Shown here: piece by piece, positions 2,852 through 16,963 of the stretch | Layout of the letters: the number at the start of each line of letters is the position of its first letter | Numbering within the stretch: the stretch's first letter is position 1 | IMG/VR virus record: IMGVR_UViG_3300044712_000487 | Span: 1 to 21,249 of that record | Reading direction: 5' to 3' (one strand) | Length of the DNA stretch: 21,249 nt | Origin: a virus | Program-made: the position numbers and the translations under genes | The notes under the pieces: model-generated | The model's input: the letters and a program-made list of their open reading frames with translations, nothing else | Told to the model about the DNA's origin: nothing | Databases searched by the model: none

Positions 2852-4243
2852 TTATCCCTCAATATTCCATATTAATTTATAACCATCAACACTTGGGGCT
2901 AAACTAAGTTTAACTACAAAGTTTCCATTATTAACACCGATGATACCATCAACAGTAATATCTGGTGTATCTCTAGTTGTATTATTAACTTCAACCAATG
3001 GTATTGAATTTATAGTTATTCTTGAATCATATATTGTAATAGTATCTGAACCAATTGGTATATCAAATATTAAATCACCAATCAATTCAACTCTCCAAAC
3101 TAATTTATAATCTGTAGAAGATGGTATATCAGAAAGTGTATAGGTGACTGAACCATCAACAATAGAAATATTTGAAATTGAAATAGGAGTTAATCCACTT
3201 GGAGTAACAATATAACCATATGGTATTGATGTTGCTTTAAATTTATTATTAGTAATTGTAATTGTGTTAGAACCAATAACGGTATTTACAACACCATTTA
3301 AATCACTCACTCCTATTACTGGATCTCTTCTATTAATAGTATCTATCATTTTTTGATCTAATGTAAGAGGTAATGAAGTATTTGGTTGGATAGGAATACC
3401 AGAAACTTCATCATAAAATTGACTTACATAAAATTGATCTTCTGCTTTAAAATCTTTAATAAAACTTCTTATATTTTCATCAAGATCAACAAAACAAGAA
3501 CCACCAGATGTAGCAGCATAAATTACTTGTTGTTCTCCATCTGCTTTACCATTTTGTTTAGGTTGACCTATGTTAAGATACATCTTCTGAATAGGATGTG
3601 CAATTGGATTTTCTGGTTTATAGAAATTGCATTCCATATTAAAAGTTAAAGTTGCTTGAAGAACTCTTCTATCTGGCTGATTTAATTCATAAACGAAATT
3701 AAGATTTTCTCCTTCTTTCGTTACTTTACATTTTCTTTCGGAACCTACTCCTTTTTCAAAAAGAGAAACATAAGCCTCTGGATGAAAGAAAGGTAAAATA
3801 TTTTCCATTAATTGGGCTAAGTCATCCATGTACTTAGTCCATAATGTAACTTCAAATGTTAACTTATAGGGAACAGTTTGAATATCGGTGTGGACATATT
3901 TTTCATCACAACCGTCTTCGTTTTTATCAGCATATTCAACATAAAGTCTTCTTTTATCTCGTTGACCTTTCATTCTTTCTGTGTCAAGAGAAATACCAGT
4001 CCAATTTATTGAAATTGATGGGAGATAATTTTCAACGGATGCACCTGTACCAATAGGCGAATCCCAATTACCTTTCATCAAAGCAGAAACAACTTTCTCC
4101 TTTGGTGTTAAGTAAACGGGTACTTTTTTTGTTTCAATTGCTTTACCGTCTGCATCATAGACATAAATCTGCATATCATTAAAGATATCAGCAAAAGCCG
4201 CAACATGATGCCAAATTACTTTATTATAATAGAAGTTCTTCAT
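2852..4243 (-). CDS. 15: Tail completion / sheath terminator gp15 with extra duplicated C-terminal domain
   Basis: gp15 caps the finished tail and connects it to the gp13/gp14 neck. T4 gp15 has 272 residues; this one has 463. Residues 1-210 follow the T4 pattern: FYYNKVIWHHVAAFADIF at the start, LPSISINWTGISLD near 74-87, LTFEVTLWTKYMDDLAQLMENILPFFHP near 128-155, and ATLTFNM near 197-203. A linker follows, then two copies of a beta-rich repeat of about 70 residues: about 317-386 (IGSNTITI ... YKLVWRVE) and about 390-461 (IGSDTITI ... YKLIWNIE). These look like small beta-sandwich modules and are absent from T4 gp15. The start ATG 4243 has AGGA only 2 bases away and an exact late promoter immediately upstream. 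Gene 16 follows after 3 bases. Confidence 0.88.
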   Translation of the reverse strand: MKNFYYNKVIWHHVAAFADIFNDMQIYVYDADGKAIETKKVPVYLTPKEKVVSALMKGNWDSPIGTGASVENYLPSISINWTGISLDTERMKGQRDKRRLYVEYADKNEDGCDEKYVHTDIQTVPYKLTFEVTLWTKYMDDLAQLMENILPFFHPEAYVSLFEKGVGSERKCKVTKEGENLNFVYELNQPDRRVLQATLTFNMECNFYKPENPIAHPIQKMYLNIGQPKQNGKADGEQQVIYAATSGGSCFVDLDENIRSFIKDFKAEDQFYVSQFYDEVSGIPIQPNTSLPLTLDQKMIDTINRRDPVIGVSDLNGVVNTVIGSNTITITNNKFKATSIPYGYIVTPSGLTPISISNISIVDGSVTYTLSDIPSSTDYKLVWRVELIGDLIFDIPIGSDTITIYDSRITINSIPLVEVNNTTRDTPDITVDGIIGVNNGNFVVKLSLAPSVDGYKLIWNIEG

Positions 4244-4249
4244 ATTCCT

Positions 4250-4257
4250 TATTTATA
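4250..4257 (-). promoter_or_regulatory. T4-type late promoter abutting gene 15 start
   Basis: Exact TATAAATA ending 6 bases before the ATG (TATAAATAAGGAATATG). With T4 geometry transcription would begin about 1 base before the ATG, so a transcript from here would be essentially leaderless and lack the AGGA. Readthrough from the upstream genes would include AGGA. Either it is a real leaderless promoter or a chance AT-rich match. Confidence 0.6.
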
Positions 4258-4275
4258 ATAAGGAACAAGAGAGAC

Positions 4276-13197: not shown

Positions 13198-14814
13198 TTA
13201 TAGAACCGAATCTGCTCCACCCTTATCCCCACCTTCTTCTCCACTATCACCTTCTTCGTCATCCTTTAAGAGTTTCTTTGCTTGTCTTTCAGCAATTCTC
13301 TTTTCAACATGTTCATCCCACTTATCATCATCCATTTCAAGATAATCTTTAACAATTAGCTCTGTAGAGAATATTGGATCTTCGGTATCAATTAAATCAG
13401 CAAACTTACTGAAGTTCTCAAACTTCAATTCAAGTATCTTGGCTTCAAAGAATTTATCAAAGAGGTTATTACTGAACATTTGAAGAGATATATCTTTCTC
13501 TTCTAACCCAAATTCTTCCCAAATACCTTTAAGTTTCAAATGTGTAATAAAGGTTTGTTTATAAATCTTGACAAATCTCTTGGAGAATCTCTTAACTTCT
13601 TTAACAAATTTAACTTCTTCACGAGTAATGTCTTGGGTATCACCAATTGAGAATTTACCTTCTTCACCACCCCAACGACTCTTAGGAATCTTTAAGCCTC
13701 TATATAGTTTATTGAGGAAGTAATCAACGTCAGCAATTTCACCAAGACCTTGACCACCAGGAAGAGAAGTAACTTCTGAACTACGACCACCTTGGAAAAC
13801 AGGGAACCAGAAGTCTTCAGTCATAGCCATAGCATCAAGACCTTCTGACACATCACCAGTCTTTGGATCAAAGAACTTACGTTGACGATATTTAGTCATT
13901 AACTCTTGAACGAAATGTTCTGCCTTTCCTTTAGGCATATTACCAACGTCAATCTTAAATATTCTTCTTTCTGGCGCACGAACAAGACGATATATAACAA
14001 GAGCATCTTCCATTAACTTTAAACGACGATAAGTTGTTTTGGCTTGCTCAAGGAAACTAAGAATTAATTTATCTTGTTCGGTTGAATCGTAATTAGCAAT
14101 ACCAGAAGCAGCATATGAAATTGCATTCTTAGGTAATGAAATAACTTCTTTATCTGTTCTGTATGCGTAGAAAGAAATATCTTCTGCTTCAAGATCATCC
14201 CAAATTGGATGAATTCTCGTAGTCATTAACTTTTTAACTTTAGTAATACCTTTTTCTGGCTTATCATTATCAAAACAATTCTCTAAAGCAATCTCACCGT
14301 CAATCATGAATTCTCTAAACCATGTATCAACAGTTTCATCTGCTTTTATAATCTCATACATTAAATGATCAAACTCAGCATTAATAGTTTTTCGAGCATG
14401 TTCATTTTCTTTTATTGAATTGTTTGTTATTTCTATCTTACAAAAGTTAGTTCCAGATTTATCAAAGTTAATTGCTTCATCTACATATTCATCAATAGCA
14501 AACCCAATTTCTGGGAATTTAGCCATTTCACGATAAATTTCAAGTCTCTGTTGTTTTGATGCTTCACTCTGGTAAATATATTTTGAATATATATTCATCA
14601 TTCCACTGAAATCACCAATACCAGCAAAATCTTGTAAATCAGAAATACCAACTTTTTCGGTCTTACCTTGTGTTTCAGTATCTTTGCCCTCTAAAGCATT
14701 ATAGATAGTCTGACGAACTTTGAAAAGTCTTTCCTTCTCACCTGGAGATAAAGCATCTTCTCTTTTTCTCTTACCGAAGTTCTTACCAAAATTAAAATAG
14801 TCTCTTAAAGCCAT
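13198..14814 (-). CDS. 20: Portal vertex protein gp20
   Basis: Forms the twelve-subunit portal ring that initiates prohead assembly and is the DNA channel for gp17. It has 538 residues (T4 524). Strong matches: YREMAKFPEIGFAIDEYVDEAI (T4 [22 protein letters not shown]), LKLMEDALVIYRLVRAPERR (T4 [20 protein letters not shown]), KIDVGNMPKGKAEHFVQELM (T4 [20 protein letters not shown]), AMTEDFWFPV and EVTSLPGGQGLGEIADVDYF (T4 [20 protein letters not shown]), and the FSIGDTQDITREEVKF region. The C-terminus is acidic and Gly-rich (DDEEGDSGEEGGDKGGAD). ATG 14814 has AAAAAAGGATATAT upstream. No late promoter was seen directly before it, so it may be read from the promoter at 15505-15512. Confidence 0.96.
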   Translation of the reverse strand: MALRDYFNFGKNFGKRKREDALSPGEKERLFKVRQTIYNALEGKDTETQGKTEKVGISDLQDFAGIGDFSGMMNIYSKYIYQSEASKQQRLEIYREMAKFPEIGFAIDEYVDEAINFDKSGTNFCKIEITNNSIKENEHARKTINAEFDHLMYEIIKADETVDTWFREFMIDGEIALENCFDNDKPEKGITKVKKLMTTRIHPIWDDLEAEDISFYAYRTDKEVISLPKNAISYAASGIANYDSTEQDKLILSFLEQAKTTYRRLKLMEDALVIYRLVRAPERRIFKIDVGNMPKGKAEHFVQELMTKYRQRKFFDPKTGDVSEGLDAMAMTEDFWFPVFQGGRSSEVTSLPGGQGLGEIADVDYFLNKLYRGLKIPKSRWGGEEGKFSIGDTQDITREEVKFVKEVKRFSKRFVKIYKQTFITHLKLKGIWEEFGLEEKDISLQMFSNNLFDKFFEAKILELKFENFSKFADLIDTEDPIFSTELIVKDYLEMDDDKWDEHVEKRIAERQAKKLLKDDEEGDSGEEGGDKGGADSVL

Positions 14815-14832: not shown

Positions 14833-15498
14833 TTATATCCCATTTCTCTTAGATAGTTTAACATTACTTTGCATTTTTTTAAATATTTCATCTGTAATAA
14901 CAACTTTTTCTAAATCTCTTATTTTTGAAATTTCAAATGTTCTAATGAATGATTCAAAATGAAGTTGTTTATTGTTAACTCCAGCAAAAAATGTTTTATC
15001 AAATACAGTATATGTTGAACTCACTGGATTTTGTGCTTTTTTCTTTATAACAAGAATATCTTCTCCTATAGTAGTAATATCTTTATTAATACTATATTCA
15101 AGGTCTTGTTTCTCATCAAACATATTTTTTATATAATTTTTAATAAAAGATAACCCCTCACTTAAAGATATTACTTTACCAGATGGATCTTTTAAATTCA
15201 TCATATATGTTTTTAATTCTACCGCTTTAATATGTTTTAAACTAGGATCAGCATATAGAAATATACATAATCTATCTCTTAATTTACCCTCTTTAGGAAT
15301 AACAAGTTGTTTTTCTTTGTTATTTAAAGAATAATTAAAAGACATAAATTCACCCAATGAGATTTCTTCCATTTCATTAGATTCAGTGACCCTATTAGGA
15401 AAATTTATTTTTAAAACTTTCCTAGATCCTTTTTTGTCTTTAAAGGAATTTCCCTCATAAGACATTGATATCTTTGATGGGTTCATGGTGATACTCAT
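14833..15498 (-). CDS. Hypothetical late protein upstream of portal (about 221 aa)
   Basis: The family is not recognised. The first ATG is at 15498 (MSITMNPSKISMSYEG); an upstream in-frame GTG at 15504 is less likely because it is even closer to the promoter. It looks like a mixed alpha/beta soluble protein with a beta-rich N-terminus (RKVLKINFPN, EISLGEFMSF), a helical middle (LSFIKNYIKNMF) and an FFAGVNNKQLHFESF motif near residue 165. There is no signal peptide, membrane segment or catalytic motif I can name. There is no ribosome binding site; TATAAATA ends 6 bases before the ATG, suggesting a leaderless transcript. It is followed 18 bases later by gene 20, so it is probably in the portal/head operon and may be a head or baseplate component. 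Confidence 0.75.
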   Translation of the reverse strand: MSITMNPSKISMSYEGNSFKDKKGSRKVLKINFPNRVTESNEMEEISLGEFMSFNYSLNNKEKQLVIPKEGKLRDRLCIFLYADPSLKHIKAVELKTYMMNLKDPSGKVISLSEGLSFIKNYIKNMFDEKQDLEYSINKDITTIGEDILVIKKKAQNPVSSTYTVFDKTFFAGVNNKQLHFESFIRTFEISKIRDLEKVVITDEIFKKMQSNVKLSKRNGI

Positions 15499-15504
15499 AA
15501 CCAC

Positions 15505-15516
15505 TATTTATAAATA
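15505..15516. promoter_or_regulatory. Palindromic bidirectional T4-type late promoter
   Basis: TATTTATAAATA is a perfect 12-base palindrome giving TATAAATA on the minus strand (15512-15505) and on the plus strand (15509-15516). With T4 geometry, transcription would begin near 15499 (minus) and 15522 (plus), one to two bases before each gene's ATG. It would drive the divergent 221-residue gene and the gp4-like gene. Confidence 0.75.
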
Positions 15517-15523
15517 TTAAATT

Positions 15524-16027
15524 ATGAGTAGTAACTTAAGATTCACTGTTCAGAAAAACACTAAACTTCATCAAGGCTTTTTTGTCCCAAAAAATCGTGA
15601 AAAATATAAAGGTGTTAGACTACCTTTTTATAGAAGCAATTGGGAAAGAATAATGATGGAGTTTCTAGACAATAACGCTAATGTTATTGAGTGGATCAGT
15701 GAGAAACCAGAAGTGGAATATATAAATCCTCTTACTGGTACAAAATGGCATTACCACCCCGACTTTGTAGTAAAGTTAAAGGATGGTAATAGTACACGAA
15801 TTGAAATGATTGAGTTAAAACCTAAACACGAAACAGAACCACCAATACAAGGTATCAAAAAAAGAAAAAAGACCCTAAAAGAACAACAAGAAAGATGGAT
15901 TCTAAATTCGGCTAAATGGGAAGCAGCTCGTTTATTCTGTAAAAGAAATAAATGGAACTTTAAAGTTCTTTATATGGAAAAAAATATATTTAAAGAAGTT
16001 GTTAGTGCTGGTTACAGAACCGCTTGA
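15524..16027 (+). CDS. 4: Head completion protein gp4-like, TnsA-type PD-(D/E)XK nuclease fold
   Basis: The protein has 167 residues (T4 gp4 has 150). T4 gp4 acts late to finish DNA-filled heads and carries a TnsA-like endonuclease fold. The pattern is clear: VPKNREKYKG then YRSNWERIMMEFLDNN (E41 in the family W-E motif), VIEWISEKPEVEYINPLTG, WHYHPDFVVKLKD (D80) and EMIELKPKHE (E97-x-K99), followed by the TEPP segment. The three acidic/basic positions form a plausible PD-(D/E)XK site. It is the only plus-strand gene in the window. It starts at ATG 15524, 7 bases after a plus-strand TATAAATA, without a ribosome site. Its last 16 bases overlap the convergent RNase H gene. Confidence 0.88.
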   Translation: MSSNLRFTVQKNTKLHQGFFVPKNREKYKGVRLPFYRSNWERIMMEFLDNNANVIEWISEKPEVEYINPLTGTKWHYHPDFVVKLKDGNSTRIEMIELKPKHETEPPIQGIKKRKKTLKEQQERWILNSAKWEAARLFCKRNKWNFKVLYMEKNIFKEVVSAGYRTA

Positions 16028-16893
16028 TTAGCAGCAGTTAAAACAGTTAAGTTTCTCCTAATTGAAGAAAGTCTATCTAATAAAGCCCTCAATGAATTTC
16101 TTTGAATATACATTAATAATTTTTTAGTATCTACCATAACATAATCATCAATTGTATTCTCAAGGCTCATTAAAAGATGTTGAGGGGTATTTTCAAGATC
16201 AATAAGTTCCTTATTTCTCTCGTAGTTTCTTCTTAATTCACAAGGTTTACCGTCAGCATCTTTTTCTTCAAGCATCTTATATATTTCTTCAGATTCAATA
16301 AGTTTTGATGCGGTTTTTGGGCCTATTCCCGATCTAATAGGAGGAATATTATCAGAAGTATCTCCAGTTAAAATCTTTTCCTCAAGATATCTCTTAGGAC
16401 TTGAACACTCCATAACTTTACCAGTTTTAGAATTAATTATTTTAACATTCTTGTATTTGACCAATTGAAGATAGTCACTATCATTTGTAATAACCGTGTT
16501 TATATCATGTGAATATCTTCTAACTAAATGAGCAGCAATATCATCTGCCTCTAATTTATCATGCTTTAAACTAATAAAAGGTAAATTTTCTTTTAATTCT
16601 ACATAGAATTTTTCAAGAAATCCATAGAATTCTTCCCAATTAATATCTTCTTGTTTAGCGCGTTGTTTTGCTCTTTGGTCTTTATAGAAATTGTATTTTT
16701 CTTTTCTCCAGTTATAGCCTTTACATTCAAAACAAACAAATACTCTATCTGGTTTTATTTTATCAATTGCATTAAAAATGTCATTTAGTAATTCACTTCT
16801 TAAAACATTCTCACCAAGCATTTTAATATCATCTTTTTTACTGAATAAGACTCTATATGCCATAGGGCTTATATCAAATATTAAGTTTTTCAT
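16012..16893 (-). CDS. rnh: RNase H / 5'-3' exonuclease (FEN1-like, T4 Rnh type)
   Basis: In T4 this enzyme removes RNA primers and flaps from lagging-strand fragments. It has 293 residues (T4 305). Conserved metal-site elements: D7 (LIFDISP), E56 (FVCFECKG, where most family members have Asp), NWRKEKYNFYKDQR (61-74, clamp/arch basic region), E115-A-D117-D118, D138 and D140 (ITNDSDYL), and D178/D181 (LTGDTSDNIPP), then the helix-hairpin-helix GIGPKTASKLI (189-199). All expected motifs are present, so the protein should be active unless the D-to-E change matters. ATG 16893 has AAAGGAAT upstream, and a terminator separates it from the preceding genes. The 3' end overlaps the convergent gp4-like gene. 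Confidence 0.93.
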   Translation of the reverse strand: MKNLIFDISPMAYRVLFSKKDDIKMLGENVLRSELLNDIFNAIDKIKPDRVFVCFECKGYNWRKEKYNFYKDQRAKQRAKQEDINWEEFYGFLEKFYVELKENLPFISLKHDKLEADDIAAHLVRRYSHDINTVITNDSDYLQLVKYKNVKIINSKTGKVMECSSPKRYLEEKILTGDTSDNIPPIRSGIGPKTASKLIESEEIYKMLEEKDADGKPCELRRNYERNKELIDLENTPQHLLMSLENTIDDYVMVDTKKLLMYIQRNSLRALLDRLSSIRRNLTVLTAANQAVL

Positions 16894-16914: not shown

Positions 16915-16941
16915 ATTATAGTACCAAAAAAATAAGGTCAA
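16915..16941 (-). promoter_or_regulatory. Possible sigma70-type promoter for rnh overlapping the terminator
   Basis: TTGACC (16941-16936), 15-base spacer, TATAAT (16920-16915). The -10 is perfect but the spacer is short. The -35 lies inside the second stem arm of the terminator at 16926-16963. An early promoter would suit a replication enzyme, but support is moderate. Confidence 0.4.
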
Positions 16942-16963
16942 CCCCTAAAGGCTGACCTTATTT
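16926..16963 (-). terminator. Rho-independent terminator after the paralogous gene pair
   Basis: Minus-strand stem AAATAAGGTCA / TGACCTTATTT (11 pairs; arms 16963-16953 and 16940-16930) around a 12-base loop, followed by more T residues (TTTTTTT in total at 16932-16926). Located 23 bases after the stop of the 144-residue gene. Confidence 0.9.

Follow-up and report, generated by a model that had tools for sequence, protein, structure and literature searches.

How a palindrome confined to 25 bp between two divergent late genes could serve both of them, and what kind of message would result, is the question raised by an uncultured virus contig of 21,249 bases (the window), in which T4-like head, neck, tail and packaging genes are present. 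T4 late genes serve as the standard example of late transcription coupled to the clamp, their messages being led by a Shine-Dalgarno (SD) sequence, and the geometry of the locus in the window leaves little room for such a leader on either side.

The palindrome and its flanking genes

Between a gp4-like head closure gene and the divergent minus-strand gene P0002, two copies of the box TATAAATA stand back to back inside the palindrome TATTTATAAATA (Table 1), four bases being common to the plus and the minus box, and each matches the T4 late consensus exactly. A sequence-only reading of this DNA had described a palindrome reading alike on both strands, predicted starts 1-2 bases before each ATG and the lack of an SD in front of either gene, and these three observations are borne out. 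Borrowed for these uncultured, fragmentary contigs, the T4 rule for placing +1, by which the box spans -13 to -6 (PMC1524935), puts the predicted starts 1 nt ahead of the P0002 ATG and 2 nt ahead of the gp4 ATG. The bases at the predicted plus-strand +1 and +2 are T and T, a poor initiating sequence. An SD is present in 17 of the 22 genes of the window; the SD score is 0 for gp4 and 3 for P0002, the latter from a three-base match only, and neither is usable, so that both sides of the palindrome lack a Shine-Dalgarno before the start codon, as leaderless mRNAs do.

Table 1. Features of the window discussed in the text, with strand and supporting details.
Feature	Position	Strand	Details
Palindrome TATTTATAAATA, proposed symmetric late promoter	15505..15516	both	exact match; identical in L002, L003/L004, L005/L006, L007
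Late box TATAAATA for gp4	15509..15516	+	predicted +1 at 15522 by the T4 rule
Late box TATAAATA for P0002	15505..15512 (read 15512-15505)	-	predicted +1 at 15499 by the T4 rule
gp4-like head closure protein P0001, 167 aa	15524..16027	+	phrog_218, E 2.6e-39; gap of 7 nt from box; no SD
P0002, uncharacterised, 221 aa	14833..15498	-	gap of 6 nt from box; upstream neighbour of portal gene
Portal protein gp20	13198..14814	-	phrog_213; next gene of the minus-strand operon; ordinary SD
TATAAATA before gene 15 (tail sheath stabiliser)	4250..4257	-	6 nt before ATG 4243

Both start codons are supported by alignment, ATG 15498 as the sole methionine ahead of a conserved NPS motif in L002 and L005, and ATG 15524 by the conserved N-terminus of gp4, which has no other methionine nearby. 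GTG 15504 was considered as the start of P0002 and discarded, since L002 has GAG at this point and in L007 the codon is not in frame. Searches of PHROG, Pfam and PDB with P0002 gave no match; a first scan for relatives was empty, an alignment scan returned only the six contigs already known, and in the scans made the gene occurs in this clade only. Its structure model was unusable (mean pLDDT 35).

The window holds ten TATAAATA boxes against 2.9 expected, a count reached in none of 100 shuffles, while the 12-mer TATTTATAAATA occurs with one mismatch in 49 of 100 shuffles and, taken singly, is weak evidence. Chance was nevertheless rejected as an explanation: one such 12-mer is not improbable in AT-rich DNA, yet its conservation excludes it. 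T4-type, gp55-dependent late promoters start transcription some 6 nt past the box and are activated by gp33 and gp45. As in such promoters, the box stands without need for a -35 element, is present on both strands and invariant in relatives, and precedes late structural genes, with gp4 on one side and an operon of P0002, portal, protease and capsid genes on the other.

Conservation among relatives and comparison with T4

Comparison of the palindrome in related phages, which the sequence-only reading had put forward as a check, came out in its favour: the 12-mer is identical in six of the six related contigs found (L002-L007), representing four lineages, and the short minus-side gap is kept in all. 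The proteins themselves have diverged, with identities to the window of 73-80% for gp4 and 34-64% for P0002, and identity between members drops to 37-62% at four-fold sites of gp4, so that unconstrained DNA would be scrambled. The gap from box to the P0002 ATG is 6, 6, 5, 6 and 6 nt (window, L003, L007, L002 and L005) and that to the gp4 ATG 7, 7, 7 and 10 nt (window, L003, L007 and L002), the short plus-side gap being kept wherever gp4 still abuts the box; the flank G(T/A)GGTT ahead of the minus-gene ATG is nearly conserved as well. Elsewhere in the clade, TATAAATA is separated from the structural gene it precedes by 15-47 nt, a distance that differs little between orthologues, and an SD usually accompanies it.

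L005 (1545-2405) and likewise L006 carry, in the stretch from palindrome to gp4, an ORF similar to homing endonucleases that has a TATAAATA box and SD leader of its own; the likeness is based on its N-terminus, which is similar to L087:817-1671, itself a match to a homing-endonuclease PHROG. This insertion is a natural separation of gp4 from its putative promoter, and the palindrome is still intact.

The sister contig L225 (also L225/G035), whose major capsid protein is 81% identical, carries a gp55-like late sigma gene (phrog_12791, E 9e-17) adjoining a gp47-like gene; no gp55 gene was found in the 21-kb window or the close contigs, all of which are fragments. In L225 gp4 is likewise divergent from a portal-side gene, but the intergenic region measures 55 bp and has no palindrome, for which reason the predicted leaderless palindrome may be a derived feature of the window clade.

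T4 itself (NC_000866) holds exactly one TATTTATAAATA, at 116450-116461, and this identical 12-mer is located between the divergent late genes 26 (minus strand) and 51 (plus strand), just as the window copy lies between two divergent late genes. At T4 26/51, however, the gaps are 21 and 17 nt with SDs of the AAGGAG type, whereas those of the window are 6 and 7 nt with none; as judged from the two sequences, the putative window promoter is a variant and not the same form. The T4 gp4/gp53 region resembles the window in that gp4 diverges from a structural gene, with late boxes on both strands of a short intergenic region, but its boxes face each other across 47 bp and its messages have SD leaders, in contrast to the back-to-back boxes and predicted leaderless messages of the window. 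No T4 box lies less than 13 nt from an ATG-started ORF of at least 50 aa.

In the T4-like loci sampled, palindromic boxes number 29 against 3.4 expected, about eightfold, with both strands counted and orthologues included. The idea that overlapping divergent late promoters would be unusual for a T4-like phage, advanced in the sequence-only reading, thus does not hold, given this enrichment and the same 12-mer at T4 26/51, which also deprives a two-way palindromic late promoter of its novelty. On the T4 sequence, a putative two-way late promoter is known in kind; the predicted leaderless geometry is the unusual part, though not unique.

Leaderless mRNAs are known from mycobacteria (PMC4633059) and have been reviewed for E. 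coli. The 5' end of such a message coincides with the AUG or adjoins it, and there is no SD, an arrangement which for the window is only predicted; a report of leaderless messages from gp55-type late promoters was not found in open-access full text, which does not prove novelty. A further likeness concerns T4 gene e, where a longer RNA folds so that the translation start is masked and the late start removes the 5' arm of the fold (PMC3014915). In the window, too, the late start would remove one arm of a hairpin over the start, but gene e keeps an SD leader (gap 13 nt) and the hairpins of the window clade are only partly conserved. Read-through RNA can fold over the minus-gene AUG in the window, L003 and L007, and not in L002 or L005; hairpins over both ATGs were dropped as the conserved feature, being found in part of the clade only.

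Late genes with a short distance from box to ATG

Across T4-like loci from five sets, the distance from box to ATG is bimodal, with 39 cases at 4-8 nt, two at 9-12 nt and 175 at 13 nt or more. An SD is present in 2 of the 39 short-gap and 132 of the 175 long-gap cases (Fisher p about 1e-16, an optimistic value, since orthologues do not count as independent cases and contigs chosen by palindrome supply 18 of the 39 short ones). Among environmental loci not chosen by pattern, a set which takes in the window clade, an ATG-started ORF follows at 4-8 nt for 15 of 100 boxes, while ten permuted motifs gave 16 of 806; one pattern scan was by its nature selected on the pattern, and its counts, being lower bounds, were not used as rates.

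A case away from the window is the gene for the DNA end protector gp2, which comes after gp4 and reads TATAAATA-(5 nt)-ATG, with no clear SD, in L052, L054, L056, L058 and L060; this gap of 5 nt is conserved between diverged phages of an unrelated set that was not selected for the feature. Short-gap genes also include those for tail sheath, tail-tube-like, gp14-like and neck proteins, and further double-sided palindromes, flanked by ORFs at 4-8 nt, occur for example in L086 (gp15 and a tail-fibre-assembly-like gene) and L129 (neck adaptor and a virion protein). In contig G013 every ORF-followed box is short-gap, except one extra upstream box. Some of the short-gap cases in other sets may be due to chance. 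Cultured T4 relatives have very few short gaps, nearly all being at least 13 nt, and Campylobacter T4-like phages, examined as a potential leaderless example, were rejected, with seven matches against seven for the reversed control and hence no signal.

It was also observed that the distance to the ATG is 4-8 nt for many or all late boxes of the T4-like phage contigs G013 (L211), G016 (L213) and G017 (L219, L220), those of sheath and tail-tube-like genes included, and that in G017 both gap classes stand side by side, with four palindromes in 40 kb. Many of the G017 gaps measure 4 nt, at which the strict T4 rule would put the start inside the AUG; true starts must therefore be variable within 1-2 nt or not be the same in all phages.

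Chances appear about even that many phages of the T4 superfamily have two kinds of late gene, one with an SD leader and one leaderless with the box 4-8 nt before the ATG, the latter being the main form in some such as G013. If such a conserved leaderless class is real, part of virion production in some T4-like phages depends on another mode of translation start, and promoter and start codon are fused into one short element.

Within the window, gene 15 had been proposed in the sequence-only reading to share the geometry of the palindrome. Box and spacing are as described, but the gene start (TATAAATAAGGAATATG) carries AAGGA in the DNA, inside a hairpin, and the arrangement is not conserved, being absent in the relatives L063 and L066. 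On the minus strand at 4243-4264, the order TTCCTTATT-ATA-AATAAGGAA-T-ATG makes up a 9-bp hairpin containing the late box (z -3.25), which hides the AAGGA SD on read-through RNA and resembles the design of T4 gene e. Gene 15 was accordingly set aside as a weak second example, not conserved, with its SD in a hairpin and readable from upstream.

A putative symmetric late promoter and its alternatives

From opposed boxes, short conserved spacing and missing SDs, near-leaderless messages are predicted, and the palindrome is probably a symmetric gp55-type late promoter giving rise to two such mRNAs, a conserved case of the wider class of leaderless late genes. The bidirectional late promoter with leaderless mRNAs of the sequence-only reading is retained as far as the two opposed boxes, the conserved spacing, the lack of an SD and the gp55-like gene of the sister contig are concerned, while leaderlessness itself is deduced from geometry. 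A late sigma factor of the gp55 class on the host RNA polymerase would read the same 12 bp either way, one polymerase at a time. In one orientation, transcription would start about 1 nt before the P0002 ATG and continue into the portal and head operon; in the other, it would start about 2 nt before the gp4 ATG. The leader-free RNAs would then be translated by a leaderless or very-short-leader route and not via an SD, and as read-through RNA arriving from outside may fold over the AUGs, as in T4 gene e, late starts could in addition gate timing.

Because the T4 sliding clamp has a polarity, moving the nick to the opposite strand reverses the direction of activation (PMC2988020). A symmetric promoter would be expected to read out clamp polarity directly, and would offer a clean test of whether clamp orientation, hence the direction of the replication fork, sets the direction of late transcription.

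Best placed among the alternatives, albeit unlikely, is a promoter working in one direction only, the other box being a by-product of symmetry. Its gene would then be transcribed from another site, through read-through out of the minus genes beyond gp4 in the case of P0002, or from a promoter so far unseen in that of gp4. Minus-strand genes do lie beyond gp4 upstream of P0002 with no terminator found between, so that read-through could reach it, and L005 and L006 keep the palindrome although gp4 has moved off and the inserted neighbour has its own box. Nevertheless, the plus box alone accounts for the last four bases of the 12-mer and the minus box alone for the first four, and all are invariant; three of four relatives have short gaps on either side, no further plus-strand gene lies upstream of gp4, and the double-sided palindromes with short-gap ORFs recur at unrelated gene pairs.

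Somewhat less probable still is that both directions are active but translation draws on messages begun farther upstream, with ordinary leaders, while the palindrome only boosts RNA level and the short RNAs are poorly translated. E. coli usually translates leaderless mRNAs only weakly, which would agree with this, as would the AAGGA of gene 15, usable on read-through RNA alone. Against it, gp4 is without an SD even on read-through RNA, read-through RNA can fold over the minus-gene AUG in the window, L003 and L007, and the SD is missing in the short-gap class and present in the long-gap class, which fits SD-free translation. A different role for the palindrome, for instance as a protein-binding site or AT-rich unwinding element with an incidental late-consensus match, is very improbable: dimeric regulators often bind palindromes and such a 12-mer, taken singly, is not unlikely in AT-rich DNA, but other late genes of the clade are preceded by the same box at conserved distances, and the T4 consensus is exact on both strands of a 12-mer that T4 26/51 uses as well.

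Farther along the minus strand, at 16930-16963, lies a strong terminator-like hairpin with the 3' arm TTGACC, followed 15 nt on by TATAAT. Together the two motifs look like an early promoter that overlaps the hairpin and would serve the exonuclease-like gene at 16012-16893, and similar sequence is present in L063 and L066.
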